Shown piece by piece: positions 5,103 through 36,450 of a stretch of 38,204 bases of DNA. The notes below the pieces were generated by a model. The model saw only the letters and a list, made by a program, of their open reading frames with translations. It did no database searches and was not told the DNA's origin. Origin of the DNA: a virus. How positions within the stretch are numbered: position 1 is the stretch's first letter; every line of letters begins with the position of its first letter. The stretch covers positions 1 to 38,204 of the IMG/VR virus record IMGVR_UViG_3300034953_000029, one strand, 5' to 3'. The position numbers were made by a program, and so were the translations under genes.

Positions 5103-5111
5103 GGATGAGAG

Positions 5112-5798
5112 ATGAGTGATCTTGATTTAAGAAAGATGAAAGACCCATTTGTTAAGGCAAACATAAACACTAGCTTCATAGCGTGTTATGACGGGGCATT
5201 CTCAGACAAGTTTTGTGATGATACTGTAGCATTGTTCCATCACCTTCAGAGTAAGTATGGAGATCAACATCCTGATGAAAACGACAACCCTATGGTTAAC
5301 CATAAGTTTAATAGCGTCGGCCACAGGAAGGACAATTCAAGGTTCTTCCAGCAGATAGCTAACGAGTGGGACGAGGAAGATAGACAGGATAACATTAGGT
5401 TGTGTAAAACATTCTATGACGGTATAGATGAGTACTTGCAAAAGTACATAAAGTCCATAGGTAAAAGTCTTGGTAAGCTTGAAGCAGATTGTTTTAAGGT
5501 TCATCACTACCCACCAGGCGGACACTTCTCGATCTTCCATCACGAACATAGTGGTGAGAATGACAGGTACAAAAGTAGAGTTCTAGTGTACATGGTGTAC
5601 CTAGGTGAGGACATTCATAATGGCGAAGGGACAACTGAGTTTATTTATCAGGGCATCCACGTCAAACCAAAGAAAGGTAGGTTAGTAATATTCCCTGCAG
5701 ATTTCACACATACCCATAGAGGTAATCCAACATACCAGCAAGAGAAGTACATTGCTACTGGCTGGTGGTTAACGGAAGGATCTAACGGAGTTTATTAA
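5112..5798 (+). CDS. Second 2OG-Fe(II) oxygenase (P4H-like)
   Basis: A 228-aa protein of the prolyl 4-hydroxylase-like 2OG oxygenase class often seen in marine phages. Candidate iron ligands are H143 and E145 in IFHHEHSG, giving an H-x-E instead of the usual H-x-D, and H202 in THTHRGNP. K212, ten residues after H202, would bind 2-oxoglutarate as the lysine does in collagen-type P4Hs. The ending KYIATGWW is typical of the group. The H-x-E variant means activity should not be taken for granted, and H144/H146 are alternative ligands. The next gene starts in a TAATG overlap. Not a close copy of the upstream oxygenase, so it probably has another substrate. Confidence 0.8.
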   Translation: MSDLDLRKMKDPFVKANINTSFIACYDGAFSDKFCDDTVALFHHLQSKYGDQHPDENDNPMVNHKFNSVGHRKDNSRFFQQIANEWDEEDRQDNIRLCKTFYDGIDEYLQKYIKSIGKSLGKLEADCFKVHHYPPGGHFSIFHHEHSGENDRYKSRVLVYMVYLGEDIHNGEGTTEFIYQGIHVKPKKGRLVIFPADFTHTHRGNPTYQQEKYIATGWWLTEGSNGVY

Positions 5799-15044: not shown

Positions 15045-18000
15045 ATGCCTTTAGGTAAAATCACAGCTCAGTCGGCAAACAGGGGTCCAACTCCTGAAGA
15101 GATCAAGATAATGGAGGAGCGTAAGGCTGGTATTAAAAACACCGAAGCCCTTAATGTCGACAGTCAAACGGAGGACGCAGTAAATAGCGTCCTTCCAAAT
15201 CTTGATCAGATACATGAAAGATCTCTGCCGTCCTCCTCTGGAGACCCTGTGTCTGCTGCTGGCGGTGTTGATGTCCCTGAGGGTCGTGAACTTGCAGCAG
15301 CTATTGGAAGGGAACAGTACAGTCTTGCTCCGGAGATTCTTAGAAGATCTCCAGGCACAGCCTTTGAGGACCCTAACTTACTAAGGGAAGAGGAAGATGC
15401 TCTTCTTGAAACCTTTGCTTTACAAGAGGGTGTTAGTAAGGACAGGGTTGCAACAGACCCAGCTCTTTATGAAAAGTTTGGTAGATACCTTGGAGCTCAG
15501 ACAGATACGCTTAATCAGGAGAAGTACTTTGAGTACACATCTGAAGGTAAAGCTGGCAGCGGACGTAAGGTCCCGACACCATGGCTAAGTCCAAAGTTTG
15601 TCCAGGAGAACACAGGTGTTGCCGTACTGAGGACGCCTGAGGGCGGAGAAGTACAGACTAGAGACTTTGGTCCTTCAATCTCCAAGAACATGCAGGACTT
15701 TTCAAACAGAGCGTCTGAAGAGGTTAACAAGACTTTGAATGACTCCTTTAATCCAGCAAACCTCAAGAGTCAACAGGATCTTTCAAGAAAGATTCAGGAA
15801 AGCTCCGGGTTAAACCCAGAGACCATTGATGAATTTATGTACACGCTTGTTAATAACTATGCTGCGGTACGTGAGGGGAACACAGATGCAAGTAAGTTTT
15901 GGTCTGATGTTTTCCTTCACTCAGTTCTATCACATACTCGAAAGAATATGTGGAGACAGAGAGAGGCATCAACAAAGTCTGCAACTGATAAGGCTAAGTC
16001 GCCTGATTCAAATGAGGACATTATGTCTGGACTTGCTGATGACAATGCTATTGGTAGGATGGCTCTTACCTCAATGGGTTTTGAGTCACCAACCAAAGAC
16101 CAAGTACAGATGGCAGGGTCACTGGCTAGAAATATAGTTGAGTATACATTCCAAGAAGACGATCCGTCTGGCGGAATGGTTGATACAAATAATGGAGAGA
16201 GACCTAAAGGCTTTGAGCACAGGTCTTTGTTCAGGACAATTAAAGTTCCTGGCGTAAATAAGAAAGGACAAGCGGTTGATAATCTTCTAACCGTTCTTAC
16301 TAGAGAGGGTGAGCTTGTAGCTGAAAAGCTAGAGCCACTTACCAATAAGATCATTCCTAGCTCATCAAGAACTGTAAGGTTTTCTGAAAGGGAAACCACA
16401 ACTCGTGATGCCAAGGTTAGGAAGACAGCAAGTCTTAAAGACGTCGAGCAGGGTGATGTTGAAAATCAAAGGGTTAACCTTGATGTTATGAACAATACCC
16501 CTCATGGCGTTCACAACGCTGGTCTTGATATGATACTTGGTATCTTGTCAAATCCTCAGGCAGTTGCAGGCTTAGACTCCCAAGGGTTTATGAACATAGC
16601 TGGAAACGGCTTTGGAGACAAGGGATCTTTTGGTAAAAGGTTTGGCTTAACTGTCTATAGGGATGACTATGGCAAGGCTATCAAGAATGAAGATGGCACT
16701 GTCAAATACAAAGACAACTCTGGAGATAGAAATAAAGACTTGATTCTCAAAGATACTATTAAGTGGGCGACAGATAACAAGGATACAGAAATGTTTTTCT
16801 ATGACTACTTCTATGGTAACAATAATAGAATGATGGTTGACCAGACTCAAGGAAACTACCAGTCAAATAAACTAGCTAGGTCTCTGCTTGAGGCTGGCAT
16901 CAAAGAGGTTTATAGTTTATCAAACCCACGACATGTTAAGCTTTTGAAAGCTGGCATTATGAAAAGGTTTGGTCATGACAAGAAGTCTATAGAGGATACT
17001 GCTAATTTGTTTGATGGATCTATTAGGGAGTTTCAGCGGATGGTGGGAACTATTGCTGGAGATGGTGGCGTTGAGTTGGTTAAACTCGCCGGTAGTGAGG
17101 AGGGCTTTGCTAGTCTTTCAGCTATAGCCGAGGCCGTTACACTTGCTGCTGCCTTAAAGGTACACAATGGTGGCGGATCTGACGTCTACAAGTCGGGATT
17201 CTATGTTGAGATTGATGGTCTTACAAATGGTATGGCACACTCTTCAATGCAGGCTGGAGACATCAACACGGCTAGGTCAACAAACATATTCTCTAAGAAT
17301 GAGTTTGACAGGGCTGTTGAGAGAGGTGAGGTTGAGGGACTGGATGTTTATGACAGAACCTTCGCAACAATGATCGACCATGCTGAGAGTTCTGGAGACA
17401 AGTCTGTTATAAGTTTCTTAAGTGCTCTTGAGTCTGGAGACTCAAAACTTGGAAGAGGCTTTGCTAAGTCACCAGTTATGATCTTTGGCTACGGAGCCGG
17501 TGATGCTGTGATTGATCTTTCTGTAAAGGCATACTTCAAAGACTTGTTCACGGAAAAACCAGGACTTCTTAATACAATCATCAAAGATATTGGTGAGGGT
17601 GGTGTTGAGAAAGTTATTGACAGGTTGTCGGAGTCTATAAACGTTGCGCTTAAATCTGACTTCTCTTTGATTAAAGAGTTGACTGACACGCTTCAGTCTA
17701 TAGGTAATGATGCATCCATCCAGGGCTTTGGCTTGTCTGTCCCATTAATTAATGGAGGCAGATCTAACTTCGGTAAGATCGAGTTTGATGTTGACTACGA
17801 CAGCAGGCACAGATATCACGTGGGTGGTAGCAAGGCAGCTATAGGTAAAGACGGATCTCCTTATGTGAGGAAGCGTGTAGAGTTTTCTACATACAAAACC
17901 AGTAGAGAGATGAACCCTTTAAGTAGTCTTGATAAGAGAAACTATAAGGGCGAGCTTAAGAAGTCTTACAAGGCTGCGACGCAAGCCGTTATCTTAAACC

Positions 18001-18470
18001 ATGCTAATGACAATATCAACATGACAAACGCCATTAGAAATCTTCATAACAAAGGTCTCAGGAACACATCGGCACATATCTTTGATGGTCTTCTAGTCAC
18101 TCCGTTGAGAGCTGAAGAAGCTGCGAGAGAATTGAACGATGTATTCATGAAGGTAAACAAGCACCCTAAGAGTCACTTAAAGTCTATGCTTAAGAGCTTA
18201 CACTTTGAGCTTGACCCAGCAGGAAATGTTATAGAAGATCCTAACAACCCACTTCCAGAAGGTAAGGTTGGGAAGGAGCGTTTCCTAAGGAGACTCCTTC
18301 CAGACGGTTCGGCTTTTGCAGAGGAGCATGGCTTATCAACATGGGATAAGAGGCTAGATCGTTACGCTTATCACATGGATCCTGAGTTAAACATAGCAGT
18401 GTCTACTATAAACAATAGAAGAGACAATGCTACCAAGGTATTGCACGGCGCCTTACAGTTCTTCTTTTAA
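15045..18470 (+). CDS. Putative virion-packaged single-subunit RNA polymerase (N4 gp50 core-like)
   Basis: An 1141-aa protein, last gene of the late operon. The C-terminal half contains the ordered motifs of T7/N4-type RNA polymerases. The DxxGR-region equivalent is YGNNNR (R595), followed by GNYQSNKLARSLL; the T7-like RNAP of this genome has SYQSSDLARGHFL at the same place. Motif A is EIDGLTNGMAHSSMQ (D724). Motif B is AKSPVMIFGYG (K808 and Y816, eight apart as in T7 K631/Y639). Motif C is AHIFDG (D1014), preceded by a helix starting NHANDN. The spacing R-A (129) and A-B (84) fits RNAPs better than PolA DNA polymerases. The length is close to the ~1100-aa catalytic core of N4 vRNAP. The N-terminal ~430 residues are unrecognised. 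Late position beside the ejection protein suggests packaging in the virion; this is inferred. Confidence 0.75.
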   Translation: MPLGKITAQSANRGPTPEEIKIMEERKAGIKNTEALNVDSQTEDAVNSVLPNLDQIHERSLPSSSGDPVSAAGGVDVPEGRELAAAIGREQYSLAPEILRRSPGTAFEDPNLLREEEDALLETFALQEGVSKDRVATDPALYEKFGRYLGAQTDTLNQEKYFEYTSEGKAGSGRKVPTPWLSPKFVQENTGVAVLRTPEGGEVQTRDFGPSISKNMQDFSNRASEEVNKTLNDSFNPANLKSQQDLSRKIQESSGLNPETIDEFMYTLVNNYAAVREGNTDASKFWSDVFLHSVLSHTRKNMWRQREASTKSATDKAKSPDSNEDIMSGLADDNAIGRMALTSMGFESPTKDQVQMAGSLARNIVEYTFQEDDPSGGMVDTNNGERPKGFEHRSLFRTIKVPGVNKKGQAVDNLLTVLTREGELVAEKLEPLTNKIIPSSSRTVRFSERETTTRDAKVRKTASLKDVEQGDVENQRVNLDVMNNTPHGVHNAGLDMILGILSNPQAVAGLDSQGFMNIAGNGFGDKGSFGKRFGLTVYRDDYGKAIKNEDGTVKYKDNSGDRNKDLILKDTIKWATDNKDTEMFFYDYFYGNNNRMMVDQTQGNYQSNKLARSLLEAGIKEVYSLSNPRHVKLLKAGIMKRFGHDKKSIEDTANLFDGSIREFQRMVGTIAGDGGVELVKLAGSEEGFASLSAIAEAVTLAAALKVHNGGGSDVYKSGFYVEIDGLTNGMAHSSMQAGDINTARSTNIFSKNEFDRAVERGEVEGLDVYDRTFATMIDHAESSGDKSVISFLSALESGDSKLGRGFAKSPVMIFGYGAGDAVIDLSVKAYFKDLFTEKPGLLNTIIKDIGEGGVEKVIDRLSESINVALKSDFSLIKELTDTLQSIGNDASIQGFGLSVPLINGGRSNFGKIEFDVDYDSRHRYHVGGSKAAIGKDGSPYVRKRVEFSTYKTSREMNPLSSLDKRNYKGELKKSYKAATQAVILNHANDNINMTNAIRNLHNKGLRNTSAHIFDGLLVTPLRAEEAARELNDVFMKVNKHPKSHLKSMLKSLHFELDPAGNVIEDPNNPLPEGKVGKERFLRRLLPDGSAFAEEHGLSTWDKRLDRYAYHMDPELNIAVSTINNRRDNATKVLHGALQFFF

Positions 18471-18474
18471 ATAA

Positions 18475-18513
18475 AAAACCCCAACAAGTCCATTACGGAT
18501 TTGTTGGGGTTTT
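18475..18513 (+). terminator. Bidirectional intrinsic terminator between convergent operons
   Basis: A 17-bp stem (AAAACCCCAACAAGTCC against GGATTTGTTGGGGTTTT, one G-T wobble) encloses a 5-nt loop. On the + strand it is followed by TTTTCTTTTTT; on the - strand the stem is followed by TTTTTTAT. It sits 4 nt after the stop of the polymerase-like gene and 5 nt before the stop of the leftward operon, so it can end transcription from both sides. Confidence 0.93.
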
Positions 18514-18518
18514 CTTTT

Positions 18519-18794
18519 TTAATATCCTCTAGCTTTCTTAACTTCAGATATTGTCTTTCTTCCTTGTCGCTTACCATTGTCGGCTACCTTTCTTGCCCGG
18601 GCCTTTGCTTTTGCTCCTGACATGCCACCTTTGACAGCCCTTTCATATTCTGATTGGATGTTCTGTTCATAAACCTTGTTGATCATCCATTCGTTTATCT
18701 CTGGTGTTCCAGCTAACTCCTCTGGAACGTTATGTTTACTCACAAACTCCTGATCTGTTATTCCAGATTCAGACATGATGTTATGGTCTTTCAT
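18519..18794 (-). CDS. Hypothetical protein, basic C-terminus
   Basis: A 91-aa protein, the last gene of the leftward operon. The N-terminal half is acidic; the C-terminal half is strongly basic and Ala/Gly-rich (GAKAKARARKVADNGKRQGRK), which could bind nucleic acid. It follows the upstream gene by 1 nt and has only a weak GGAC-type RBS. No family recognised. Confidence 0.6.
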   Translation of the reverse strand: MKDHNIMSESGITDQEFVSKHNVPEELAGTPEINEWMINKVYEQNIQSEYERAVKGGMSGAKAKARARKVADNGKRQGRKTISEVKKARGY

Positions 18795-24017: not shown

Positions 24018-24891
24018 CTACAACCTTAAAGTAGTGCCTTGTTGAGGGGTCTTCCCTATAATTCTCAAGGTCTACACCATCGAGTTGTGGTACTAACTTA
24101 TAGTTAACCCTTCCCTTTACACTTGATACTTTCATTTGTACTCCTCCAGCTGTCATGGATTGACCATTGGCCATTTCAATTAAAGCGTCTTTGAGTGAAG
24201 CCTCTCTCTTTTTAAGTTCAGACAGGGCTACGGATACTTCCTTCCACTCTCTTGCTGCATCAATCCACAGGTCATCAGTATTCTCAATAACATCGGATGT
24301 GGATGCGAGCGGTGGTTGGCAGCCCCAGTACTTACTCCATGCAGATCTAATACTATCCTGTGCTTTCTTGTTTGGCTTAACAACTTTCATTAGTCCACAT
24401 GTATTATTCATGTCATATATGTAGAAGTACAGGGTTTCGGCGCCAGTCACTAGCATTTGCTGTTGGCATTGCAACCAGTATTGCTCAGGTATCCTATCAG
24501 TCTCTACCAACTCAACCCACAGGTCAGAAGTAGAGCCCTTTAAAGGACATTTGATTTCAAGTACAGAGTTGTCTTGCTCTCTCCATCCATCAAGTGATGC
24601 GCCTATTTGCAAGTCATCATTGAGTACAACTACAGGTTCCCATGTGGCGCCCATATCATCCTCAAACATTTGTCTTGCTTCGTCTTCATACTTATTGCCG
24701 TGCTGCATGGCAAAGTTTGTTTTAATAATAGTCTGTCCAGTCTTTACCTTGTACAAACCAAGCGATGTCTTTGGCTCCCACTTAGACACACCAAGTAAAG
24801 CTCCAACTTCTGAAGCCATGCCATATCCACTACGAACATCGAGCCATTCCTGTGATCCTTGCGGCAGGTCCTTATCTTTTATTACTTTCAT
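23998..24891 (-). CDS. YqaJ-like phage recombinase exonuclease
   Basis: A 297-aa PD-(D/E)xK nuclease of the YqaJ/lambda-exonuclease type. The N-terminal GSQEWLDVRSG and the helix HGNKYEDEAR (E69) are family hallmarks. D101 in GASLDG, then E112-x-K114 in LEIKCPLKG, form the metal site. The C-terminal ~90 residues are a helical extension. It would resect double-stranded ends for recombination or help degrade host DNA. The ATG overlaps the primase stop (ATGA) with a CGGAG site. Confidence 0.88.
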   Translation of the reverse strand: MKVIKDKDLPQGSQEWLDVRSGYGMASEVGALLGVSKWEPKTSLGLYKVKTGQTIIKTNFAMQHGNKYEDEARQMFEDDMGATWEPVVVLNDDLQIGASLDGWREQDNSVLEIKCPLKGSTSDLWVELVETDRIPEQYWLQCQQQMLVTGAETLYFYIYDMNNTCGLMKVVKPNKKAQDSIRSAWSKYWGCQPPLASTSDVIENTDDLWIDAAREWKEVSVALSELKKREASLKDALIEMANGQSMTAGGVQMKVSSVKGRVNYKLVPQLDGVDLENYREDPSTRHYFKVVDERVHA

Positions 24892-28032: not shown

Positions 28033-28055
28033 TTCCTATAGGGTGATGGTCGAGA
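28033..28055 (-). promoter_or_regulatory. Phage RNAP promoter, leftward, after the RNAP gene
   Basis: A 23-nt sequence identical to the one at 35686-35708 but on the opposite strand. Its core CGACCATCACCCTATAGG resembles the T7/SP6 promoter layout (binding region, then TATAG start). By analogy transcription would begin at the G at 28036 and run leftward into the gp2.5-like SSB, helicase and primase genes. It begins one base after the RNAP stop codon, as class II promoters do in T7-like phages. Use by this phage's own polymerase is inferred. Confidence 0.8.
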
Positions 28056-30497
28056 TTAACAAAAGAAGAAGTCGCTTCCAAGCACGTCTTCTAGTATTAA
28101 ATCCCCTTGCTCAGGTGGTTCCCTGTCAAATTTCTCATCATTATCTATTAGGTTACTCCTCATATCTTTAAATGTGTCTCTTGAATACATCTTTATGAAC
28201 TGACTCTTTGTCGTATCAATAAGTTGCTGAACGTCACAAGCATGGACACTGTAACTGTCGTGAATAGCACCAAACGTTGGAAGGTCAAGCGCATTAATAA
28301 CTAAAGACATATGGGCGGCATCATAAGAATGAACCCAGTTAGCGCCAATAGCTGACAAATGCTCAGACGTTGAAGGTATATCGGTAACTTCTAGATATAT
28401 GTGTCCTATTTGTCTTCCTTGCAGCGTTCCTTTGTACATTCTCTTCCTAGCAACCCATTTCTGAGTAAGAACAGGGAATCCAGATGGACTCTCCCAAGAC
28501 ACTTCTTTCATCCCGAGTGATTTTATTCTGTATTTCACCAGCTCTTGCAGATACTTCTTGATATGAACTGGTCCTGTACATACCTCGTCGTACGCTTTAA
28601 CTAAGTCTTTGCCTAATGTTCTAGCGTCAGACCTTGTTAGTTTGTATTTGGAGGTTATTCCAGCATCATAAGAGTCTTGGTAAATAATCTCACCAATCTT
28701 TCTAGCGCCAGCATCATAAGCCCTTGTCATAGAGCCTCTTTTGCTAATACCCTTGCGAACCAGCTTCATGGGTATCTTACGTAGCTTCTTGCCTATCTCA
28801 GTGCTCTCGTTGATGGCTATCATAGCCTTCCCGATACGAAGGTAGAAATCCTTAGGCACATCCATAGGAACAAGGCCTACCAGTTTTCCAGCCCTGCTGT
28901 CTCTCGACATGGCGGCTAAATGTTGCGTTCCATTATTGACACCATCTATTGCAATGGGCATTCCAGAATAGTACGGCTCGCCAGTGAGCGCAGAACCAAT
29001 AATTCCACCAAGCTCAAAGCACAACGACAAGAATACCCAGGGTTTTTCCGCACCTTTCCATACTTCTTGGAAGTTCATTGGATCTTCAGCAATCTCTAGC
29101 AGCATATCCATGTTCTCAACCGTCCAGTTGTGCTTATCATTGACACTCATCTTATCAACAGATATGTCAACCATACCCTCGTTGTTCAATAGCGTTATGT
29201 AGTCAGCTTCAAGCCAGTCAATGTCCTCAAGTTCTTTAATAGAATACGTCTGGTTAAAGGAGGATGCCAAATGTATAAATGTATACTCAACACCTTCTTG
29301 CGTTAACTCCTTCTCTTCAGCGAACAAGAAATGACCCCTTGCAAGGTCACTTGATTGGTAACTGAAGTAGGGATCTCTATTGTATATGCGACCCCTGTAG
29401 TCTAAGTACATGCCCTGATAGAACTCGTATCCTAGCCACCCAGCCTTTGTTCCAGTGCCATTAATAGTTTCAATAATAGCCTTGTTGCGCGCCGCTTGAG
29501 ATTGAGTCCTAAGACAGAATTGTTTATCAGTCCATCTAAGGTTTTCAATGTTGAATGCTTTGTGTAACTTATGTACGTTTTCTTTTGTCTCTTCACGTTT
29601 CTTTTCGTTCTTTAATTTACCAAGTCTGATGGTTTGCTTTTCAAGCTCCTTCTCTAATGCCGGAACAGCGCCAGAGTTACCTCTATGTGGCTCGAAGATG
29701 TCACCATTTCGATACAGATCGATACCTTTAAGAGAAGAGTTGACTCCAAGCCTATTAATATCAGATACGTTAAATACTACATCATTACCGCTAAAGTCTT
29801 GAAGGGTAATATTTATATCTGTAATCTCAGCCTTAAGCCTTAAACATACATCAGCTACTTGATGGTTTATCTTCCACTTTACGTTCTCAAGAGTGTTCAT
29901 TGATACCATAAACTGTGAGTTTTCATATCCTTTGATATTTACATTGGACTTTACCAGTTTTTCAGGTATCCCTTCTGTAACCCTTTGACCATCTTTCCAT
30001 TCTTTATATGGTTTTAGAGACATTCCTATTCTTTCTGCAGGATCTATAGATATCTTTGGAAACTCTTGACCCATCTCTAGTACATAAGGGTTATAGTTAA
30101 CCTTCTTCTTTGATTGCCTGTCCATAACCTCCTCAACTCTAAAGTATGGCTCACGGATGAGCAGGATGTACCCATTTTCAATTAATATGTCTAAAACAAA
30201 GTCACCTACGCATAATGCACGAGCGTCGCTATAATCGGATCCTCGTGCGTTTAAGATCCCAGTGGCTATATCTCCTACATTCTTTGATGTGTTTGTTAAC
30301 TTGATTCTTCCGTCCCCTTGTCTAAACTTCCATATTAAAAAGTCAAAGACATTGCTTATTATTCTTACACTTCTGTAATCATTACATAAGCACTGGGCAT
30401 CTCTAAATGTTTTAGCAGCATTTGAGTTGTTATACTTTCTAGATGTTATTTTGTTCTCAAGTATGTCTGCTAATTGATTTATTAAGTTGCTTTTCAT
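28056..30497 (-). CDS. T7-like single-subunit DNA-directed RNA polymerase
   Basis: An 813-aa polymerase (T7 RNAP is 883). Motifs in order: DYRGR (D366-R370), motif A PIAIDGVNNGTQHLAAMSRD with D518, motif B SKRGSMTRAYDAG with K586 and Y594 (spacing 8, as T7 K631/Y639), motif C IHDSY with D747, and a hydrophobic C-terminus SDFFFC comparable to the T7 FAFA foot. The glycine after the motif B Tyr is Asp here. RBS AAAGGAG. It would transcribe the middle and late genes from the paired 23-nt promoters. It is encoded in the early operon, consistent with expression by another polymerase first. Confidence 0.97.
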   Translation of the reverse strand: MKSNLINQLADILENKITSRKYNNSNAAKTFRDAQCLCNDYRSVRIISNVFDFLIWKFRQGDGRIKLTNTSKNVGDIATGILNARGSDYSDARALCVGDFVLDILIENGYILLIREPYFRVEEVMDRQSKKKVNYNPYVLEMGQEFPKISIDPAERIGMSLKPYKEWKDGQRVTEGIPEKLVKSNVNIKGYENSQFMVSMNTLENVKWKINHQVADVCLRLKAEITDINITLQDFSGNDVVFNVSDINRLGVNSSLKGIDLYRNGDIFEPHRGNSGAVPALEKELEKQTIRLGKLKNEKKREETKENVHKLHKAFNIENLRWTDKQFCLRTQSQAARNKAIIETINGTGTKAGWLGYEFYQGMYLDYRGRIYNRDPYFSYQSSDLARGHFLFAEEKELTQEGVEYTFIHLASSFNQTYSIKELEDIDWLEADYITLLNNEGMVDISVDKMSVNDKHNWTVENMDMLLEIAEDPMNFQEVWKGAEKPWVFLSLCFELGGIIGSALTGEPYYSGMPIAIDGVNNGTQHLAAMSRDSRAGKLVGLVPMDVPKDFYLRIGKAMIAINESTEIGKKLRKIPMKLVRKGISKRGSMTRAYDAGARKIGEIIYQDSYDAGITSKYKLTRSDARTLGKDLVKAYDEVCTGPVHIKKYLQELVKYRIKSLGMKEVSWESPSGFPVLTQKWVARKRMYKGTLQGRQIGHIYLEVTDIPSTSEHLSAIGANWVHSYDAAHMSLVINALDLPTFGAIHDSYSVHACDVQQLIDTTKSQFIKMYSRDTFKDMRSNLIDNDEKFDREPPEQGDLILEDVLGSDFFFC

Positions 30498-30528
30498 TCT
30501 TGCTCCTTTGTTTTATGCTAATCATCCT

Positions 30529-30546
30529 CAGACACGTTAGTGTCTG
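30529..30546 (-). other. Perfect hairpin in RNAP leader
   Basis: CAGACAC and GTGTCTG form a perfect 7-bp stem with a 4-nt loop, 32 nt upstream of the RNAP ATG. No T-tract follows. Candidate for an RNA processing site, translation control of the RNAP, or a hairpin-type promoter; the sequence alone does not decide. Confidence 0.5.
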
Positions 30547-30625
30547 TATCGCACCCTTATTGTCTTGTTTTAAACCTGATCCCTAGCGCCCTTATTGGTA
30601 GATTTTGTTTGTATTTTGTTGAAAG

Positions 30626-30653
30626 AACAACACACCCCGAAGGGTGCTTTGTT
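30626..30653 (-). terminator. UUCG-loop hairpin, possible attenuator or processing site before RNAP
   Basis: On the - strand a 12-bp stem (one mismatch, one G-U) closes the very stable tetraloop in CACCC-TTCG-GGGTG, followed by TTGTTCTTT. The tail is T-rich but not a clean T-run, so termination may be partial. It lies between the small early genes and the RNAP gene, where it could attenuate read-through or be cut to release a separate RNAP mRNA. Confidence 0.5.
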
Positions 30654-30738
30654 ATTTTGAGTTGTCTTTCTCTTGTGCTATGAACCAAATTACTGATATT
30701 AAAAATATTATTAACCATACCCATGCTAGATACTCCAT
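30652..30738 (-). CDS. 28-aa membrane peptide
   Basis: A tiny ORF (MEYLAWVWLII...) with one strongly hydrophobic helix of ~18 residues and a charged C-terminus (QEKDNSK). It starts six nucleotides after the upstream stop; AGGAA lies 11 nt before the ATG. Its stop overlaps the UUCG hairpin. Composition with several Trp, Ile and Leu is typical of genuine single-span peptides, but no homology can be claimed. Confidence 0.4.
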   Translation of the reverse strand: MEYLAWVWLIIFLISVIWFIAQEKDNSK

Positions 30739-30744
30739 TATAGT

Positions 30745-31077
30745 TTATTTATTTCCTCGTTCTAATATGTTTTCTAACTCCTCAAGAGTGTCTACCTCAG
30801 CGATATCCATAAGGTAGTCAACAATCTCTCTGTCTGAGAGTGGTTCAGGGATTAGGTCGTCACTCTTTGCGCTTGCTACATGTTTAGCATACTTTTGAGT
30901 TACACCCTCTATCTGTGCAGTGCTAGCATAGTAATCAAAGTTAAACCCATCCCAACCTAGCGTAAGCTTCCTCATTTCATCTTCAGCTAGCATTTCAGCT
31001 TCATCTGCAGTATCTGCTTCAGGGAATAGATATATTGTCTGTATATCCACTCCAACTTCCCATATATATTTCTTCAT
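30745..31077 (-). CDS. Hypothetical acidic early protein
   Basis: A 110-aa acidic protein. The N-terminus (KKYIWEVGVDIQTIYLFPEADTADEAEMLAED) looks like a small alpha/beta unit similar to short phage proteins with an EADTADEAExxAxD helix. The C-terminal helix repeats Asp/Glu (EVDTLEELENILERG). The ATG overlaps the upstream stop (ATGA). Function unknown. Confidence 0.6.
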   Translation of the reverse strand: MKKYIWEVGVDIQTIYLFPEADTADEAEMLAEDEMRKLTLGWDGFNFDYYASTAQIEGVTQKYAKHVASAKSDDLIPEPLSDREIVDYLMDIAEVDTLEELENILERGNK

Positions 31078-31271
31078 GCGTATTCCTCCTCGTTTTCTTC
31101 AACATATTCAACAATATAATCCTTATCTATACCCACAAAAGATACAGAGTCTTCAACTGTACCGTCATCGTAAACCCACACTTGGACATAAAACGGTTCT
31201 GTATACCAGTTGTTTTTCTTGGCTACTTTTGCCCAGTGCTCCCTATGATACTCAAGGTCTTTTACTTTCAT
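31074..31271 (-). CDS. Hypothetical 65-aa early protein
   Basis: A small acidic protein with aromatic beta-strands (FYVQVWVYDDGTVEDSVSF) and a strongly acidic C-terminal helix (EYVEENEEEYA). The start overlaps the upstream stop as ATGA with GGAG eight nucleotides before it. No family recognised. The acidic, DNA-mimic-like composition is common in early anti-host proteins, but that is only a suggestion. Confidence 0.55.
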   Translation of the reverse strand: MKVKDLEYHREHWAKVAKKNNWYTEPFYVQVWVYDDGTVEDSVSFVGIDKDYIVEYVEENEEEYA

Positions 31272-31489
31272 GTATTGCTCCTCATCTCTTCAATTTTGCC
31301 ATTAAATAACTCATTAACAGTTGTCCAGCTCATCTTGTAATCAGTGTACTCAACAAGTTCCAACCATTCGTTATCTGTTAGCGTTATGTCTGCGTTATAC
31401 TCAACAGTCTCTTTAGTCCAGTAAGCCATTATAAGAGAGTCTTCAGGTGGTTCTTCTTGTATTATTTCTATCGCTTCCTGTGTTTGCAT
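31268..31489 (-). CDS. Hypothetical 73-aa acidic early protein
   Basis: A 73-aa protein with high Glu content and several Trp/Tyr residues (LIMAYWTKETVEY, NEWLELVEYTDYKMSW). A GGAG site lies nine nucleotides before the ATG. No membrane segment or Cys. Not recognised; one of a run of small early proteins. Confidence 0.55.
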   Translation of the reverse strand: MQTQEAIEIIQEEPPEDSLIMAYWTKETVEYNADITLTDNEWLELVEYTDYKMSWTTVNELFNGKIEEMRSNT

Positions 31490-31494
31490 TAGTG

Positions 31495-31773
31495 TTATCT
31501 CCTATTATTTAAGTCAGTTAGTTTGTATGTTCCATCAGCGATCTTCTTACGAGTCTCAGCGATACCAGAGTCTCCCAAGTATTTGTTGCGATATCTTCCA
31601 GTGGTTGTTGAGTAGTCCCAGTACTTCTCATCAAGAAGCACTTGCCTACCAGTTCTTTTAACAATTACTGCTGCGTAGCTCTGGAAGTATTCATCACCAG
31701 TGCTATGGTCATACACAATAAATTGATTTGGAACATGGTTTCCGTTGTTGTTAATCATATTTCTTACTTTCAT
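31495..31773 (-). CDS. Conserved-type small phage protein (unknown function)
   Basis: A 92-aa protein with a pattern I associate with a widely distributed small phage/plasmid protein: NGNHVPNQFIVYD, then YFQSYAAVIVKR, then WDYSTTTGRYRNKYLG. No known activity. The second ATG (M6) is possible, but the first overlaps the upstream stop (ATGA) and is chosen. Confidence 0.65.
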   Translation of the reverse strand: MKVRNMINNNGNHVPNQFIVYDHSTGDEYFQSYAAVIVKRTGRQVLLDEKYWDYSTTTGRYRNKYLGDSGIAETRKKIADGTYKLTDLNNRR

Positions 31774-31961
31774 AGTGATTTACCTCTATAGTCGTCATTA
31801 ATTTTATACACCTCTACATCATCAGAGTTCTTCCCTGCTTCTGTAACAAACCCCAGCTCTAATGCTTTCTCTAGTAGCATTTCTGCATCAAGCTCAAAGT
31901 TCCATCCCGGAGCTTCTTGGTGGAATAGTTCTTGTTTTGTTATTAGTCTCTCTATATTCAT
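31770..31961 (-). CDS. Hypothetical 63-aa early protein
   Basis: A 63-aa acidic protein, mostly helical in the middle (LDAEMLLEKALELGF) with a beta-like end (DDVEVYKINDDYRG). Both ends overlap neighbours by ATGA. The CTATAG in its 3' end is coding and not a promoter copy. Function unknown. Confidence 0.55.
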   Translation of the reverse strand: MNIERLITKQELFHQEAPGWNFELDAEMLLEKALELGFVTEAGKNSDDVEVYKINDDYRGKSL

Positions 31962-32254
31962 AGTAACTTCCCCTCTTCTAGTTCATCAAGTTGTTCTTTT
32001 GTTAATCCCCATTGGCGCTCAGTGCAAATATCATCCACAATGCTTTCGGAAATATCTAAAAAGAGCTCTTCAACATGAAAAGCGAAGTCCCTATTGGCCT
32101 GTAAGGTGGCCTCAGATACTTTTTCACTCATATCTTGTTCACCCTCAGGGAATCTATATAGGAATGCGTCAAAGAACCTGTCACCCACAGCCCTGCCCAT
32201 AATACTTGCGAGTCTGCGGAACTCATCCTTACTAAAAGCTTGCTCAATTGTCAT
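31958..32254 (-). CDS. Hypothetical 98-aa early protein
   Basis: The open frame reaches 32329, but the ATG at 32254 is preferred. It has AGGAG seven nucleotides upstream and overlaps the previous gene by only 11 nt. The product (MTIEQAFSKDEFRRLASIMGRAVGDRFFDAFLYRFPEG...) is acidic and helical throughout. No motif recognised. Confidence 0.55.
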   Translation of the reverse strand: MTIEQAFSKDEFRRLASIMGRAVGDRFFDAFLYRFPEGEQDMSEKVSEATLQANRDFAFHVEELFLDISESIVDDICTERQWGLTKEQLDELEEGKLL

Positions 32255-32480
32255 CTTCATTCTCCTCTTTATCTGATTGACCTTCATGTTCCATCCAGTA
32301 GTGGAGAAATCCTTGGAAGCCATAAACATCTTTTGAGATATCCAATGTAAGGCTTATACCTTTGTATTGTTCGTTGTCGCTCTCAAAGTTCATTTCAATA
32401 TCGTTCTGTGTTGCCATGGCTAGTAGTTGCCATAACTTGTGTCGTCTCTGGTGGTCATCTTCAATTATTAGTAGTTTCAT
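32244..32480 (-). CDS. Hypothetical 78-aa early protein
   Basis: A 78-aa acidic protein. The N-terminus MKLLIIEDDHQRR looks superficially like a response-regulator start, but the length and the rest do not fit that fold. An AAGGAAA site precedes the ATG. The C-terminus is highly acidic (DKEENEDDN). Function unknown. Confidence 0.55.
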   Translation of the reverse strand: MKLLIIEDDHQRRHKLWQLLAMATQNDIEMNFESDNEQYKGISLTLDISKDVYGFQGFLHYWMEHEGQSDKEENEDDN

Positions 32481-32495
32481 TATATTTCCTTATTA

Positions 32496-32567
32496 TTAGA
32501 ATGTCAGTACTTGCCATATTATTATGACTATTAGTGTTGCGATACATATTTCAATCAGGATGAGCAC
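32496..32567 (-). CDS. Possible 23-aa membrane peptide (GTG start)
   Basis: A very short ORF in the 74-nt gap. GAGGA stands six nucleotides before a GTG inside the end of the HTH gene, and almost all residues are hydrophobic (ILIEICIATLIVIII), enough for one membrane span. It is supported only by RBS spacing, by filling the gap and by analogy with the other micro-membrane peptides of this operon. It could be fortuitous. Confidence 0.3.
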   Translation of the reverse strand: MLILIEICIATLIVIIIWQVLTF

Positions 32568-33085
32568 AGCAAATCCTCATCATCTCTATCATAGAAAAAG
32601 TCTTCACCACCCTTATCAGTTACCCATTTATTTCTACAGTGCATAAGACCGCTATAAGTTACCTTGTCCTTCTCCTTTTGTGATTCGTCCTCTATTGGTA
32701 TTCCCCATATAACCTTTCGAGAGTATGTTTCCTCTGTAAGGTCTTCAAGTAAATCCTCTGCGAATATCTTTTGATGTTTCTTTGCAAATACACGTCTTAG
32801 GTCTGTGTACTTGCAAAGCCTTGTTCTGGCACTATTAAAGGTTATTCCAACAGCTTCAGCAACATCTATCGAATCAACCTCAGAACCATCATCGAGCGTC
32901 ACCTTAAAGAAGTGTGCTGGATTTGCGTAATACCTTTTAGTCATATCTTTAAAGATAATGGCAGGATCTCTTGATTGCTGTAGTCTAGCCCTTGCAGTCG
33001 CCAAGGTGAGGTTTAGGCGTCCTGCAAGTTCGAGACATGTTATTGATGTACCATCATCTAACAGATACTTTTTAAGTGTTCTCAT
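32555..33085 (-). CDS. Tandem-HTH putative DNA-binding protein
   Basis: A 176-aa protein from the ATG at 33085, chosen over 33097 because GGAG is six nucleotides upstream and it forms an ATGA overlap. Residues 8-41 and 64-97 are two diverged copies of the same unit: a LDDG start, then a helix-turn-helix-like segment (LELAGRLNLTLATARARL and IDVAEAVGITFNSARTRL). The spacing is 56 residues. Each could bind DNA, suggesting an early regulator or operator-binding protein. The C-terminal 70 residues are acidic and Trp-containing with no known motif. Confidence 0.6.
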   Translation of the reverse strand: MRTLKKYLLDDGTSITCLELAGRLNLTLATARARLQQSRDPAIIFKDMTKRYYANPAHFFKVTLDDGSEVDSIDVAEAVGITFNSARTRLCKYTDLRRVFAKKHQKIFAEDLLEDLTEETYSRKVIWGIPIEDESQKEKDKVTYSGLMHCRNKWVTDKGGEDFFYDRDDEDLLCSS

Positions 33086-33315
33086 GCGCATCTCCATGAT
33101 GGGCTATCTTGATAACTCTCTGGTATATCTTTAATGACGTATGTCCACTCCTTAGGGTACATTACCTTGAGGAAGTCTGGTGCATCGCAATCTTCTTCTA
33201 AGAACCAGTCATTCTTATCTTGGTATGAGTAGCAAGATGGTTGAAAACCGTATTCTTTAACGGTTCGTTTAGATACTTGTAGGTATCCGTGTTCAGGTGT
33301 TGAAATCCAAAGCAT
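33082..33315 (-). CDS. Hypothetical 77-aa early protein
   Basis: A 77-aa protein rich in aromatic residues (WISTPEHGYLQVSKRTVKEYGFQPSCYSY, WTYVIKDIPESY). Three Cys are scattered and do not form a clear metal site. It follows the small membrane gene by one base, whose last codons contain its AGGAG site. Not recognised. Confidence 0.55.
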   Translation of the reverse strand: MLWISTPEHGYLQVSKRTVKEYGFQPSCYSYQDKNDWFLEEDCDAPDFLKVMYPKEWTYVIKDIPESYQDSPSWRCA

Positions 33316-33316
33316 A

Positions 33317-33439
33317 TTATCTCCTGTATTTATTAATTAAGTAAGCAGCTAGTGTTGCAAGAGTTATTACAACAGCAAAATGCATTACAGTTAGTGTTAT
33401 TAGTATTAGTTCTATGGTATTTTCATTATATTGGAACAT
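33317..33439 (-). CDS. 40-aa single-span membrane peptide
   Basis: A short ORF with GGAG eight nucleotides upstream of its ATG. The start overlaps the end of the preceding gene and the stop is one base before the next ATG. After a polar start (MFQYNENTIE) comes a hydrophobic helix of ~25 residues and a basic C-terminus (INKYRR), consistent with a C-terminus facing the cytoplasm. It accounts for the gap between its neighbours. Function unknown. Confidence 0.6.
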   Translation of the reverse strand: MFQYNENTIELILITLTVMHFAVVITLATLAAYLINKYRR

Positions 33440-33602
33440 CGAATAACTCCAGTTGAACCCTTTTAAAGCCCATCTTCTTCAGTATGTAAAGGGTAGTAAT
33501 CATACTGCTAAGCGTTAGAAATTGCTCAGCGTCTTCAGTCTGATCTTTAAGGACGTGGACGCGAGCAATAGCCTCAACTAAACACATTGTTGTGTAGTTC
33601 AC
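33426..33602 (-). CDS. Hypothetical 58-aa early protein (GTG start)
   Basis: The frame extends to a TTG at 33614, but a GTG at 33602 that overlaps the upstream TGA (GTGA) fits the operon pattern better; an internal ATG at 33587 is another option. The product is helical (CLVEAIARVHVLKDQTEDAEQFLTLSSMITTLYILKKMGF). No family recognised. Confidence 0.5.
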   Translation of the reverse strand: MNYTTMCLVEAIARVHVLKDQTEDAEQFLTLSSMITTLYILKKMGFKRVQLELFDVPI

Positions 33603-33979
33603 TCTTTTGTGCAAATCATACTTTCTGCAACTATCTGTTCTTCAACAAAATCCTCAATACCGAAGTATTTGAAGTCTGTAATCATTGCACTACACGAAGG
33701 ATATGTTGATAGAATCTTATATCCTCTTTTAAATTGCTCATAGTCATCAAGTGTATCGTATTTAATGTCATGAGCGTTCATTGCTAACTCTCTGTAAAAC
33801 TCTCCTGTTGGTGTGAGTGGAGCACATGTGTCAGCATAGTATTGCGTCGCCCCAAGAAGTTGTAATACGATATCAACATCTTGAAGCAACACCGTTAGCT
33901 GCTTGTTATCTTCATGTGCCACTACTGTTGTACTCATAGCTAGTGACAATGCCGCTGTTGCGATTAGTTTATTGATCAT
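33599..33979 (-). CDS. Secreted/periplasmic early protein with signal peptide
   Basis: The frame is open to 34072, but the ATG at 33979 gives a 126-aa protein with a clear signal peptide: basic n-region MINK, hydrophobic core LIATAALSLAMSTTVV and a likely cleavage after the Ala of VVAHE. The mature ~104 residues are acidic with three Cys (DTCAPL, YPSCSAM, MICTKE). The ATG overlaps the upstream gene by 11 nt. An exported protein in an early operon suggests envelope alteration such as superinfection exclusion. That is inference; no family is recognised. Confidence 0.6.
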   Translation of the reverse strand: MINKLIATAALSLAMSTTVVAHEDNKQLTVLLQDVDIVLQLLGATQYYADTCAPLTPTGEFYRELAMNAHDIKYDTLDDYEQFKRGYKILSTYPSCSAMITDFKYFGIEDFVEEQIVAESMICTKE

Positions 33980-34319
33980 TAGATCTAGCCTTTGATAGTT
34001 GGTAAGTGAACACAAGCATATCTGAGTATGTGCAGCGTCTCTTAGGAGCTTTCTTAAAAGACCTAGTATCAAGACCTAGCTTTGAGTCCTGCTGTAGCGT
34101 TGCTGCTACATATGCCATTTTGAATCCAGCTAGATTTGAAATCTCTCTTACTGTCATTGGAACGCCTCTACGAAGCATTTCAGTCATAGCTTGCTTCTTT
34201 GTTCCATAAGACTTGATGATGGCACGTTGTGATGGCGCTCTAGTGTCTCTATTTGTAATGATAGTTATTCTCTTGTTAGTTGAGCTGTTTGTAAACATTG
34301 ATTTGATTAGATTTAACAT
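33969..34319 (-). CDS. Putative HTH DNA-binding protein
   Basis: A 116-aa basic protein. Residues ~50-80 (RRGVPMTVREISNLAGFKMAYVAATLQQ) have the layout of a helix-turn-helix with a Gly-containing turn, of the kind used by small regulators and by replication initiators. The N-terminus is basic and polar. AAGGA is upstream of the ATG, and the start overlaps the previous gene by 7 nt. No specific family can be named. Confidence 0.5.
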   Translation of the reverse strand: MLNLIKSMFTNSSTNKRITIITNRDTRAPSQRAIIKSYGTKKQAMTEMLRRGVPMTVREISNLAGFKMAYVAATLQQDSKLGLDTRSFKKAPKRRCTYSDMLVFTYQLSKARSNDQ

Positions 34320-34582
34320 TTGTTATCCTTTTTATTATTAGTTGAGTGTCTCATTGTTGCGTTACCGTAAGACTCTATTGTCATCTCTGAATGACTATAC
34401 TCCCTTACGATGTGCCAGTGGTTTGTCATACAGAAACTGGCAAATTCTGTTTTAAATGCTAAGAGTTCAGCTCTTATCATTAAGTCAGCGTAACCTCTAT
34501 CGCTATTGGAGGCGTTTAACATTGCTTTGTAAGCGTCGACATACAAAGGGTTTTGACGTTCAATTTTAAAGTCTGTGTTCAT
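34313..34582 (-). CDS. Hypothetical 89-aa early protein
   Basis: An 89-aa protein, helical in the first two thirds (DRGYADLMIRAELLAFKTEFASFCMTNHW), with a basic C-terminus (NNKKDNKC). RBS GGAG six nucleotides upstream. A 51-nt gap without coding content separates it from the ssb gene. Function unknown. Confidence 0.55.
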   Translation of the reverse strand: MNTDFKIERQNPLYVDAYKAMLNASNSDRGYADLMIRAELLAFKTEFASFCMTNHWHIVREYSHSEMTIESYGNATMRHSTNNKKDNKC

Positions 34583-34633
34583 AGTATCTCCGTTAGTAAG
34601 TGAGTAGTTTAGTCACATGCTCAGGTGTGGTCG

Positions 34634-35053
34634 TTAGAAAGGCACGTCTGTTCCAACAGAGTTGATGAAGCCTGCAACTGCTGCGTCAGATGTTTGATTG
34701 CCTTGACCAGCATTAGGGTTTGGATCTAGCATTTGTAAGACGCCAGAGAAGCCCTGTACATTGATATTAACAGTGTATTTCTCAACTCCGTCTTTATCAG
34801 TGTACTTGGATGGCTTAAGCTTACCTTCAAGGTATACTTTAGAACCCTTGTGCAGGTACTTGGCGGCAATCTCACCAAGCTTGCCAAAGACAGTGACACT
34901 ATGCCAGTCAGTAATCTTGTTACCGTTCTGGTCTTTCTCAGATGTAGCAACCGAGATGCGTGTCAACGAACCTTGTCCATTAGCAGTGTTATAAGTTTTA
35001 ACCTCAGGGTCTAGTCCAAGGTTTCCGATTAGTGTTACTTTATTGATACTCAT
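34634..35053 (-). CDS. ssb: Bacterial-type single-stranded DNA-binding protein (SSB)
   Basis: A 139-aa OB-fold SSB. The start SINKVTLIGNLGLDPEVK, the strand WHSVTVFGKLGEIAAKYLHKGSKVYLEGKLK and YTVNINVQGF match the SSB core closely. A short linker is followed by the tip GTDVPF, equivalent to the DIPF tail that binds host replication proteins. It would coat single-stranded DNA and could recruit host factors through the tail. AGGAG precedes the ATG. It is distinct from the gp2.5-like protein at 27400. Confidence 0.95.
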   Translation of the reverse strand: MSINKVTLIGNLGLDPEVKTYNTANGQGSLTRISVATSEKDQNGNKITDWHSVTVFGKLGEIAAKYLHKGSKVYLEGKLKPSKYTDKDGVEKYTVNINVQGFSGVLQMLDPNPNAGQGNQTSDAAVAGFINSVGTDVPF

Positions 35054-35070
35054 GATTGAGCTCCTGTATT

Positions 35071-35076
35071 ATTATA
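35071..35076 (-). promoter_or_regulatory. Possible host sigma70 -10 element before ssb
   Basis: A perfect TATAAT on the - strand, 18 nt before the ssb ATG. At 17-bp spacing the -35 would be TTCATC, a weak match to TTGACA. The leader would be very short, starting just ahead of the AGGAG site. A plausible but unproven host-dependent promoter. Confidence 0.3.
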
Positions 35077-35193
35077 AGTGGTCAAAAGATATAGATGAAC
35101 CCTGACCAGGGGAACATCCAATGAAAGAATTAGTGGCAGTTTAAACACGTGCCGGTGCTCATAGTAAAGGAGAGTAAACTATGAATTCTCTCT

Positions 35194-35211
35194 GAGACTC
35201 TTTAGAGTCTC
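35194..35211 (-). other. CTTTAG-centred hairpin 1
   Basis: GAGACTCT-TT-AGAGTCTC forms an 8-bp perfect stem in the 163-nt gap between the 133-aa early gene and ssb. It shares the TCTTTAGA centre with hairpins at 35655 and 36301 but its outer arms differ. No T-run follows on either strand. Candidate hairpin promoter, processing site or weak terminator. Confidence 0.6.
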
Positions 35212-35216
35212 TAAGA

Positions 35217-35618
35217 TCAATAGTGCTCTTCTAGTTCCAGAGCTAGTTGATCTTCTTGAATGTCTTGATGACCAAAGATCTCTACACCTTTGTTACGATC
35301 AACAATGGTGCATTGAAACTCTTCACCATCCTCACAAACAAATGAGAAGTAGTTGTACCAGTCAGACTGGCCAGTATACTCACCATTGTAGTCAGGGTTA
35401 GAGTCGTCTATCTTGAATGCAATGAACTCAAGTACACGGTGATCGCCCTGAAGCTCCCAGTCAGTGTACTCAACAAGAGCAGTGTTGTTAGGCCTGATAC
35501 TAAGCAGGTGATTAACAAAGTCAGTAGCATGCATGCCACTCTTCTTGAACGCAACGTTAAGTTTAGTTTCAAGGTGTTGAGCAGTTAGAGCTTGCTCAGG
35601 CTTAGATAGATGATCCAT
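35217..35618 (-). CDS. Hypothetical first gene of the leftward operon
   Basis: A 133-aa acidic protein, the most promoter-proximal gene of the leftward operon, with GGAG seven nucleotides before the ATG. The N-terminal half is helical (LETKLNVAFKKSGMHATDFVNHLL). A beta-rich, aromatic segment follows (NGEYTGQSDWYNYFSFVCEDGEEFQCTIVD), and the tail is acidic (QEDQLALELEEHY). Early position and acidity suggest a host take-over protein, but no family is recognised. Confidence 0.6.
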   Translation of the reverse strand: MDHLSKPEQALTAQHLETKLNVAFKKSGMHATDFVNHLLSIRPNNTALVEYTDWELQGDHRVLEFIAFKIDDSNPDYNGEYTGQSDWYNYFSFVCEDGEEFQCTIVDRNKGVEIFGHQDIQEDQLALELEEHY

Positions 35619-35654
35619 TAGGATTCTCCAGTAGTTATAAAAGGTTTTCTTTCC

Positions 35655-35672
35655 AAGGTTCTTTAGAACCTT
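35655..35672. other. CTTTAG-centred hairpin 2
   Basis: AAGGTTCT-TT-AGAACCTT, an 8-bp perfect palindromic stem, 36 nt upstream of the first leftward ATG and 14 nt from the rightward phage promoter. The 14 central bases GGTTCTTTAGAACC are identical to those of the hairpin at 36301. Confidence 0.65.
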
Positions 35673-35685
35673 AAGTTGTTGTAAT

Positions 35686-35708
35686 TCTCGACCATCACCC
35701 TATAGGAA
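35686..35708 (+). promoter_or_regulatory. Phage RNAP promoter, rightward, heading the late operon
   Basis: The + strand copy of the 23-nt sequence also found inverted at 28033-28055. Its core is CGACCATCACCCTATAGG, followed by AAGAGAG as in the initial transcribed region of SP6/T7 promoters. The predicted start is the G at 35705. Read rightward, transcription would cross a ~740-nt leader before the first late gene at 36451. AT-rich sequence precedes both copies. Confidence 0.8.
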
Positions 35709-35924
35709 GAGAGTAAATCTTTCCTACCTGATCACACCGGTAATTAGAGATAGCCAGTGATTGGATGCGAGGTTCTTCCCGTGGTTCACAGCACGGTCTC
35801 TAAGTTACTCGGTGGTTTGATACCTCGCCTATTAACTATGTCAGACTCCTTATGGAATTGCGTGGGTTCATGAACCATGCCCACTTAAGTATTCCGTTGA
35901 ATGCTTGAAGAACACAAAGGGAAA

Positions 35925-35949
35925 GTATAGGACTCGAAAGAGCCTATAC
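35925..35949 (+). other. Hairpin with GAAA tetraloop
   Basis: GTATAGGACTC-GAAA-GAGCCTATAC: ten base pairs with a single bulged A, closed by a GNRA-type GAAA loop. Such loops are characteristic of functional RNA structures. It would lie ~220 nt into the transcript from the promoter at 35686. Confidence 0.55.
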
Positions 35950-36300
35950 AATCCATGTGATTCCATAAGAGGTTATGAGGTAGTAGATGAGAGTCTCAAG
36001 GACAAACTGCAAGAGATTAGAGGATACTTTGGGTGTCACATAAGGTGATCTCATTGTTCGTTATGTACATCAACAACAGCGTAAGTACTCTGTAATTACC
36101 ACGATGTACCCAAGGTGAGCACATAGTGGATACATACAGAGTCTCAACAGAGATGAGTACCTTACTTCTTGGATGTTCCAATGCTCTAACATTAAGAAAC
36201 GTTTAGTACACCACAGTATCTTAGAGAATACGTACAGATCCTTATTGGATACCCGAGCGAGACCCAGCTCCACCCCTGAAGGTGACATGAGTATTCTCCC

Positions 36301-36320
36301 TGAGGTTCTTTAGAACCTCA
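36301..36320. other. CTTTAG-centred hairpin 3
   Basis: TGAGGTTCT-TT-AGAACCTCA, a perfect 9-bp stem that can extend by three CCC/GGG pairs past a small bulge. It shares 14 central bases with the hairpin at 35655. It lies 130 nt upstream of the first late gene. No T-tract. Confidence 0.65.
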
Positions 36321-36369
36321 CAGGGTAACCAGAGAACAAGGGGGGTGTCAAAACAATACGTGCGGTATC

Positions 36370-36391
36370 TATATATATATCACACACACAC
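36370..36391. repeat. (TA)n-(CA)n dinucleotide tract
   Basis: A run of alternating T/A bases followed directly by alternating C/A bases, 22 nt in all, just before the first late gene. Alternating purine-pyrimidine tracts like this melt or kink easily and are a possible DNA-unwinding element; no function is shown. Confidence 0.6.
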
Positions 36392-36420
36392 GACTGAGAG
36401 AACACTTCCAGCATTAATGG

Positions 36421-36431
36421 AGGGGTCCCCT
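36421..36431 (+). promoter_or_regulatory. GC palindrome next to late RBS
   Basis: AGGGGTCCCCT is a perfect palindrome around a central T, 20 nt before the ATG at 36451 and followed by the AT-rich TATTATATTG. It may be an operator or small hairpin near the ribosome-binding site GAAGGA. Confidence 0.3.
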
Positions 36432-36450
36432 ATTATATTGAAGGAATACT

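Follow-up and report, generated by a model that had tools for sequence, protein, structure and literature searches.

The Locus

The DNA analysed here, which I refer to as the window, is the whole 38,204-nt stretch (positions 1-38,204) of IMG/VR virus record IMGVR_UViG_3300034953_000029, from a marine phage. It encodes a single-subunit RNA polymerase (RNAP) of the T7 type, 813 amino acids (aa) in length, and carries two identical 23-nt sites which face in opposite directions and which very probably are promoters for that enzyme. The features upon which the argument is built are as follows.

28033..28055, minus strand: predicted RNAP-side promoter, TCGACCATCACCC-TATA-GGAAAC, exact twin of the late-arm site, with an orthologous site in 16 IMG/VR loci; predicted transcription start (+1) at the first of the two Gs following TATA
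28056..30497, minus strand: 813-aa T7-type single-subunit RNAP (PF00940, E=1e-61; phrog_414, E=6e-99)
35686..35708, plus strand: predicted late-arm promoter, identical over 23 nt to its twin, with an equivalent site in 11 IMG/VR loci; predicted +1 at 35705
35705..36450, plus strand: structured leader RNA, presumably from the late promoter (z=-6.9; 44 pairs, 21 covarying; core at about 35843-35974)

The minus-strand arm runs from about 35.6 to 18.5 kb, that is, through small early open reading frames (ORFs), then the 813-aa RNAP, and then replication and nucleotide genes (helicase, primase, exonuclease, Holliday-junction resolvase, ribonucleotide reductase subunits, and endonuclease VII). The plus-strand late arm, encoding virion proteins, runs from 36.4 kb off the end of the window and resumes at the window start, continuing to 18.47 kb. 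This is not the plan of Autographiviridae, in which all genes lie on one strand in early-middle-late order, as here the early and replication arm is on the minus strand and the late arm on the plus strand.

In profile comparisons the 813-aa protein matches T7 and mitochondrial RNAP structures, and the catalytic Asp-Lys-Tyr-Asp set (D518, K586, Y594, D747) is invariant in the RNAP alignment. Because of those profile matches, and because it lies ahead of motif C, the stretch at about residues 683-703, RMYKGTLQGRQIGH, is read as the specificity loop. As would be expected of a T7-type enzyme, a probable specificity loop precedes motif C and tracks promoter bases. A beta hairpin is modelled at this loop, though in a low-confidence model; indeed, the AlphaFold models of the 813-aa RNAP and of a second, 1141-aa RNAP-like protein (below) are both of low confidence (pLDDT 43 and 36).

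Two Identical, Inverted Sites

An earlier, sequence-only reading of this DNA had pointed to two inverted copies identical at 23 of 23 bases, and both are present, with the inverted arms reaching 30 nt at 93% identity. The window contains two exact copies of CGACCATCACCCTATAGG, at 28035-28052 (minus) and 35689-35706 (plus), and no third site is found there even when up to three mismatches are allowed (chance expectation 0.01 matches). Another contig from this virus, 100% identical to window positions 1-23977, adds 13.6 kb upstream, and a search of that sequence also yielded no further copy. The site is short, is present more than once in the genome, and has an AT-rich melting element with TATA/TAAA-GG, in the window as well as in its relatives, which is what is looked for in promoters of this type.

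The minus-strand copy begins, as had been claimed, immediately after the RNAP gene, with the stop codon TAA followed directly by TCTCGACC. The plus-strand copy had been said to head the late operon. It does lead into the late arm, but it abuts no gene, with approximately 745 nt (35705-36450), in which no plus-strand gene is called, intervening before the first late ORF at 36451.

The Same Sites in Relatives

Searches of IMG/VR with the RNAP found 17 loci (59-72% best-segment identity to the 813-aa protein), one of which, L071, holds an N-terminal RNAP fragment only. The remaining 16 extend to the end of that gene or beyond, and all possess a T7-like site after it, in most cases with one or two small genes intervening. 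The relatives that share such sites have RNAPs 63-72% identical to that of the window. Late-arm sites were located instead via the conserved RNA found downstream of them, using a two-part pattern scan which returned 19 stretches, 14 of them accepted as true RNA members by shared sequence or span. In every one of the 11 members which reach far enough upstream there is a T7-like site at the late head, about 280 nt before the RNA core. No RNAP relatives turned up in GTDB genomes.

Bases at about -14 to -8, here called the 'specifier', vary among viruses and yet agree between the two sites of a given virus, while there is little variation in the melting element or in the GG start. Two relative contigs, G003 and G006, hold both sites, and both display the window's inverted layout. 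In G003 the two sites are identical and inverted, while the two sites of G006 agree in specifier, one reading TATAAGG and the second TTAAAGG. For other relatives, as a limit of the data, sites were matched by sequence group rather than by common contig, and the specifier groups recurring at both places across contigs are GATTAGCC, GGGTAGCC, GGGATACC, GGGTGTCC, and GGGAGTCC. As the specifier differs between viruses, a search of IMG/VR for the exact window promoter gave no matches. Part of the GGG group shows TTAAAGG on the RNAP side (L062, L063, L069) versus TTATAGG at the late head (L044, L045, L052), which may set different promoter strengths.

Covariation of Polymerase and Promoter

Each 12-residue protein window was scored for how well pairwise residue differences follow pairwise promoter differences. 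With 14 RNAPs, kept at a 95% identity cut-off and providing 784 RNAP windows, the best windows span residues 683-700 (raw r up to 0.77), and these are still the best once whole-RNAP distance is removed (r=0.61). A larger blind scan added helicase, primase, and a neighbouring 173-aa protein to the RNAP (11 taxa; 1,728 windows). There the top eight windows all lie within or at the edge of the RNAP specificity loop, as again do the top windows when the promoter comparison is restricted to -12 to -10. The partial correlation peaks at the loop in both of these scans, with r=0.61-0.66.

Individual comparisons tell a similar story. The RNAPs of L062 and L063 are 94% identical, with six of their 48 differences found at 691-698 (within 688-700, p=4e-5), and their RNAP-side promoters, compared from -17 to +2, differ at -12 to -10 only (ATA vs TAG). 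The RNAPs of L061 and L064, by contrast in outcome, show 83 residue differences, none at 680-705, and have a common promoter. In addition, KKQI in the loop pairs with a TAGC promoter in four RNAPs from three lineages, and a tyrosine at 691 pairs with A at -12 also in four RNAPs.

This match could be a consequence of shared ancestry alone, that is, of clade-wise drift of loop and promoter, in which case the match would be uninformative with regard to recognition, even though the sites might be promoters all the same. Bases -14 and -13 do follow clade, and the smallest scan, discussed below, did not favour the loop. The loop's peak nevertheless survives control for whole-RNAP distance, loop and promoter change together between L062 and L063 on an otherwise nearly unchanged background, and the KKQI-TAGC pairing recurs in lineages that are separate, all of which makes ancestry alone a very improbable explanation. 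That the 813-aa RNAP recognises the two sites, and does so with a specificity that is new, as had been suggested from the window sequence, is supported both by this coevolution and by the conservation of the two positions in relatives.

Several points weigh against that interpretation. A scan of seven taxa did not favour the loop, with windows of the primase, the helicase, and the second RNAP scoring equally high, an outcome which is taken as one of low power. For -14 and -13 the best RNAP windows in the 11-taxon scan are instead at residues 15-33 (r=0.84), but this association is confounded by clade, so that an N-terminal recognition element for those bases, by analogy with T7, is but weakly suggested. 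The TATA element of the G006 late-head site is shifted (CCCCTATAAGG vs CCCCTTAAAGG), and contigs with both sites number only three, window included. Lastly, the T7/SP6-like layout that had been noted is there, with TATA-GG and 14 of 23 positions of the window's late site matching the T7 promoter, but such resemblance by itself is weak evidence, as at least 13 positions agree with T7 in some 100 further 23-mers of the window and T7 scoring does not discriminate here. The case for promoters thus is built upon exact repetition, conserved positions, and coevolution with the RNAP rather than upon plain resemblance to T7.

Structured RNAs

Judged by its sequence, each site in most relatives, and also the late-arm site of the window, opens onto a structured non-coding RNA. 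The window's leader folds far better than its shuffles, and in its core a CGUU hairpin and a GAAA-tetraloop hairpin are closed off by a 26-bp helix. In relatives the promoter-to-first-ORF region is a conserved RNA of about 370-400 nt; the members include, besides the window's own, those of L039, L041, L042, L044-L048, L052, and L054-L056. Over the 3' domain, the divergent window sequence included, 97% of cells are paired across the 44 pairs, and the 21 pairs changed on both sides compare with 6.8 in shuffles, none of 500 of which equals the observed value; sliding destroys the signal. That structure was drawn from one of the tested sequences, which works in its favour in the count of paired cells and, to a lesser degree, in that of two-sided changes. 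The structure that RNAalifold first proposed, involving a CCGUUG-CAACGG pairing, was dropped as the window sequence cannot form that pairing, and the hairpin version was tested in its place. A search of Rfam with the leader gave no convincing match. In some relatives this RNA directly precedes a gene resembling the terminase-like start of the ORF at the window's end, and a role in packaging is possible.

The RNAP-side site in nearly all relatives leads into a different, short RNA, in which two hairpins have complementary loops (GUGGUAG/CUACCAC) and the second hairpin is followed by a U-run in the manner of a terminator (e.g., L005 4266-4382, L058 13332-13448, L062 4551-4660). L060 lacks the first of these hairpins, and the window lacks this two-hairpin RNA, having another set of hairpins at its RNAP-side site. 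The loops are invariant, and covariation therefore cannot probe their pairing. In most members the second loop runs on into ACCUCC, which is like the anti-Shine-Dalgarno sequence of 16S RNA.

A further explanation may be considered, namely, that the inverted pair serves at the DNA level in replication, packaging, or recombination, and is no promoter at all. The pair does flank about 7.6 kb in inverted orientation, and the late site is near a terminase-like gene in some relatives. Counting against this are variable bases which track the RNAP specificity loop, a constant TATA/TAAA-GG with its purine-rich start, a structured RNA which in relatives begins at the site, and the orientation of the sites toward the two arms. 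This explanation is extremely unlikely.

A Second RNAP-like Protein and Candidate Early Starts

If the two sites are promoters, then the RNAP gene itself and the early genes upstream of it require another start, as they lie outside of the transcripts of both. Four additional features bear on this.

15045..18470, plus strand: 1141-aa second single-subunit RNAP-like protein, candidate virion RNAP, its gene the final one of the late arm (phrog_2206 virion RNA polymerase, E=1e-18; phrog_414, E=1e-15)
36301..36320, minus strand: hairpin with C-TAAA-G loop, then GGGAGAATAC; candidate early promoter for ORF 36070-36288
35655..35672, minus strand: second constant-loop hairpin, then GGAAAGAAAAC; upstream of ORF 35217-35618
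35194..35211, minus strand: third constant-loop hairpin, with other stem but same loop, then AGAGAGAATTC; upstream of ORF 34634-35053

Residues D724, R804, K808, Y816, and D989 of the 1141-aa protein are invariant in seven homologues and, by reading, are placed like the catalytic residues of T7 RNAP. Five of the seven homologues match an RNA polymerase family. A sequence search against solved structures gave no match for the 1141-aa protein, and a profile comparison between it and the 813-aa RNAP gave a weak one.

The three hairpins share one loop, possess two stem cores, and are followed by purine-rich 3' sequence, with GAGAAT in two of the three. Shuffled sequence holds a mean of 0.015 such hairpins, and at most one, figures which serve as a guide since the search was tuned after the hairpins were first seen. 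Comparable hairpins followed by GTAGAGAATAC, possible equivalents of these, occur at G003 24690-24870, and L042/L054 likewise have possible equivalents, though not all relatives do. The arrangement suggests, by analogy, an early step like that of phage N4. This extra early start, the structured RNAs beyond the sites, and the second, virion-type RNAP-like protein had all been missed in the sequence-only reading.

The presence in the same genome of two single-subunit RNAP-like proteins means that the 23-nt pair might be read by the virion-type protein instead, and in the seven-taxon scan a window at its residues 298-311 did reach r=0.69. The larger scans, in which the second RNAP was not among the proteins covered, nonetheless rank the 813-aa specificity loop at the top, and a site directly after the 813-aa RNAP gene is an autogenous layout. 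Reading of the pair by the virion-type protein thus is very unlikely.

A Proposed Transcription Program

Taking the two sites as promoters of the 813-aa RNAP, each would extend from about -17 to about +6, with transcription starting (+1) at the G immediately following TATA. Because of the orientation of the sites and the gene map, the pair is inferred to drive both arms of the genome. The minus copy, that is, would drive replication and nucleotide-metabolism genes leftward, while the plus copy would drive the late arm rightward, structured RNA first. Bases at about -12 to -10 would be read by the specificity loop, and those at -14 and -13 perhaps by the N-terminal domain. The RNAP itself would be made from early transcripts, begun either by host RNAP or by the phage's own virion-type RNAP acting at the constant-loop hairpins.

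More broadly, and with rather less than an even expectation of its being correct in full, a two-polymerase cascade can be envisaged for this phage group. A small, packaged RNAP would act first, at constant-loop hairpins, followed by a T7-type RNAP acting on the inverted pair. Specificity would have diversified as a loop of about 13 residues changed together with three to five promoter bases, giving rise to many natural orthogonal pairs, and each arm would open with a structured RNA of its own.

T7-type RNAPs and their promoters are everyday tools of the laboratory, and it is an open question by what route such a pair can acquire a new specificity and still function. Available here is a natural enzyme-promoter set of about 10 promoter variants, for most of which the RNAP is known as well; two of the enzymes are 94% identical and yet apparently differ in specificity, so that the transition between them is testable with few changes. 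The leader at the late promoter is a candidate for a new structured RNA, and, to judge from the second RNAP, early transcription in the manner of N4 may also be carried out by far smaller enzymes. A promoter for yet another phage RNAP is by itself an ordinary advance, as Syn5, KP34, and EM1 attest (PMC3950665, PMC6834552, PMC9596486). What appears to be new is instead the natural coevolving series of specificities, the structured leader RNA, and, likely, the two-polymerase plan.

Comparison with Known Systems

Shared with T7, T3, SP6, and K11 are the single-subunit RNAP family, the 17+6 promoter layout with TATA/TAAA before GG, and variable bases which fall at -12 to -8, where the specificity loop makes contact (PMC13029058, PMC9596486). 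The window's specifier bases are unlike those of all four promoters compared, however, and here two opposed sites were found per genome, with divergent arms rather than genes on one strand. The marine cyanophage Syn5 likewise has a single-subunit RNAP with a unique promoter of its own (PMC3950665), but that 15-bp promoter, ATTGGGCACCCGTAA, is unlike the window sites. The RNAPs of KP34 and EM1 are also divergent phage single-subunit enzymes with their own promoters (PMC6834552, PMC9596486), but they are single enzymes, and the available portions of those reports do not describe a natural coevolving series.

The closest named RNAP, at 37% identity, is that of the cultured Roseobacter phage CRP-7 (MK613349), in which the early arm similarly ends near the RNAP and converges with the late arm. 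Five exact copies of TAGTCCNYTATTAAAAGG are found in that genome, at 2027+, 7148+, 14765+, 38262-, and 57212- (chance 0.01 per part), three of them pointing rightward within the early arm and the other two leftward within the late arm. These likely are promoters of the CRP-7 RNAP, judging from sequence and placement; the main text of the CRP-7 paper mentions no promoters. They differ from the window's sites in motif, spacing, and greater copy number, with no site directly after the RNAP. CRP-7 also offers a cultured phage in which the general model can be tested.

Phage N4 (Schitoviridae) employs a virion RNAP and a second phage RNAP, with DNA hairpins near one genome end serving as early promoters (PMC4496689). 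The window's likeness to N4, as known from sequence, lies in the combination of a virion-type RNAP-like protein and a second phage RNAP, and the hairpins before early genes may be counterparts of the N4 early promoters. It lacks the giant virion RNAP of N4, however, with 1141 aa versus approximately 3,500 (PMC12633501). In addition, its second RNAP is a single polypeptide rather than a heterodimer, and packaging of the virion-type protein is a candidate property only.

Further Observations

Where the two arms converge there is one additional feature, which likely is a bidirectional terminator.

18466..18522, no strand assigned: inverted repeat with A/T-rich flanks, its 26-nt arms 85% complementary and 5 nt apart

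Elsewhere in the late arm, two adjacent genes at 4521-5798 match 2OG-Fe(II) oxygenase. A 149-nt direct repeat (71%; 3769-3917 and 4162-4310) lies inside of a single ORF, 3388-4524, which itself is found after a tail fibre gene bearing an S74 peptidase chaperone domain.

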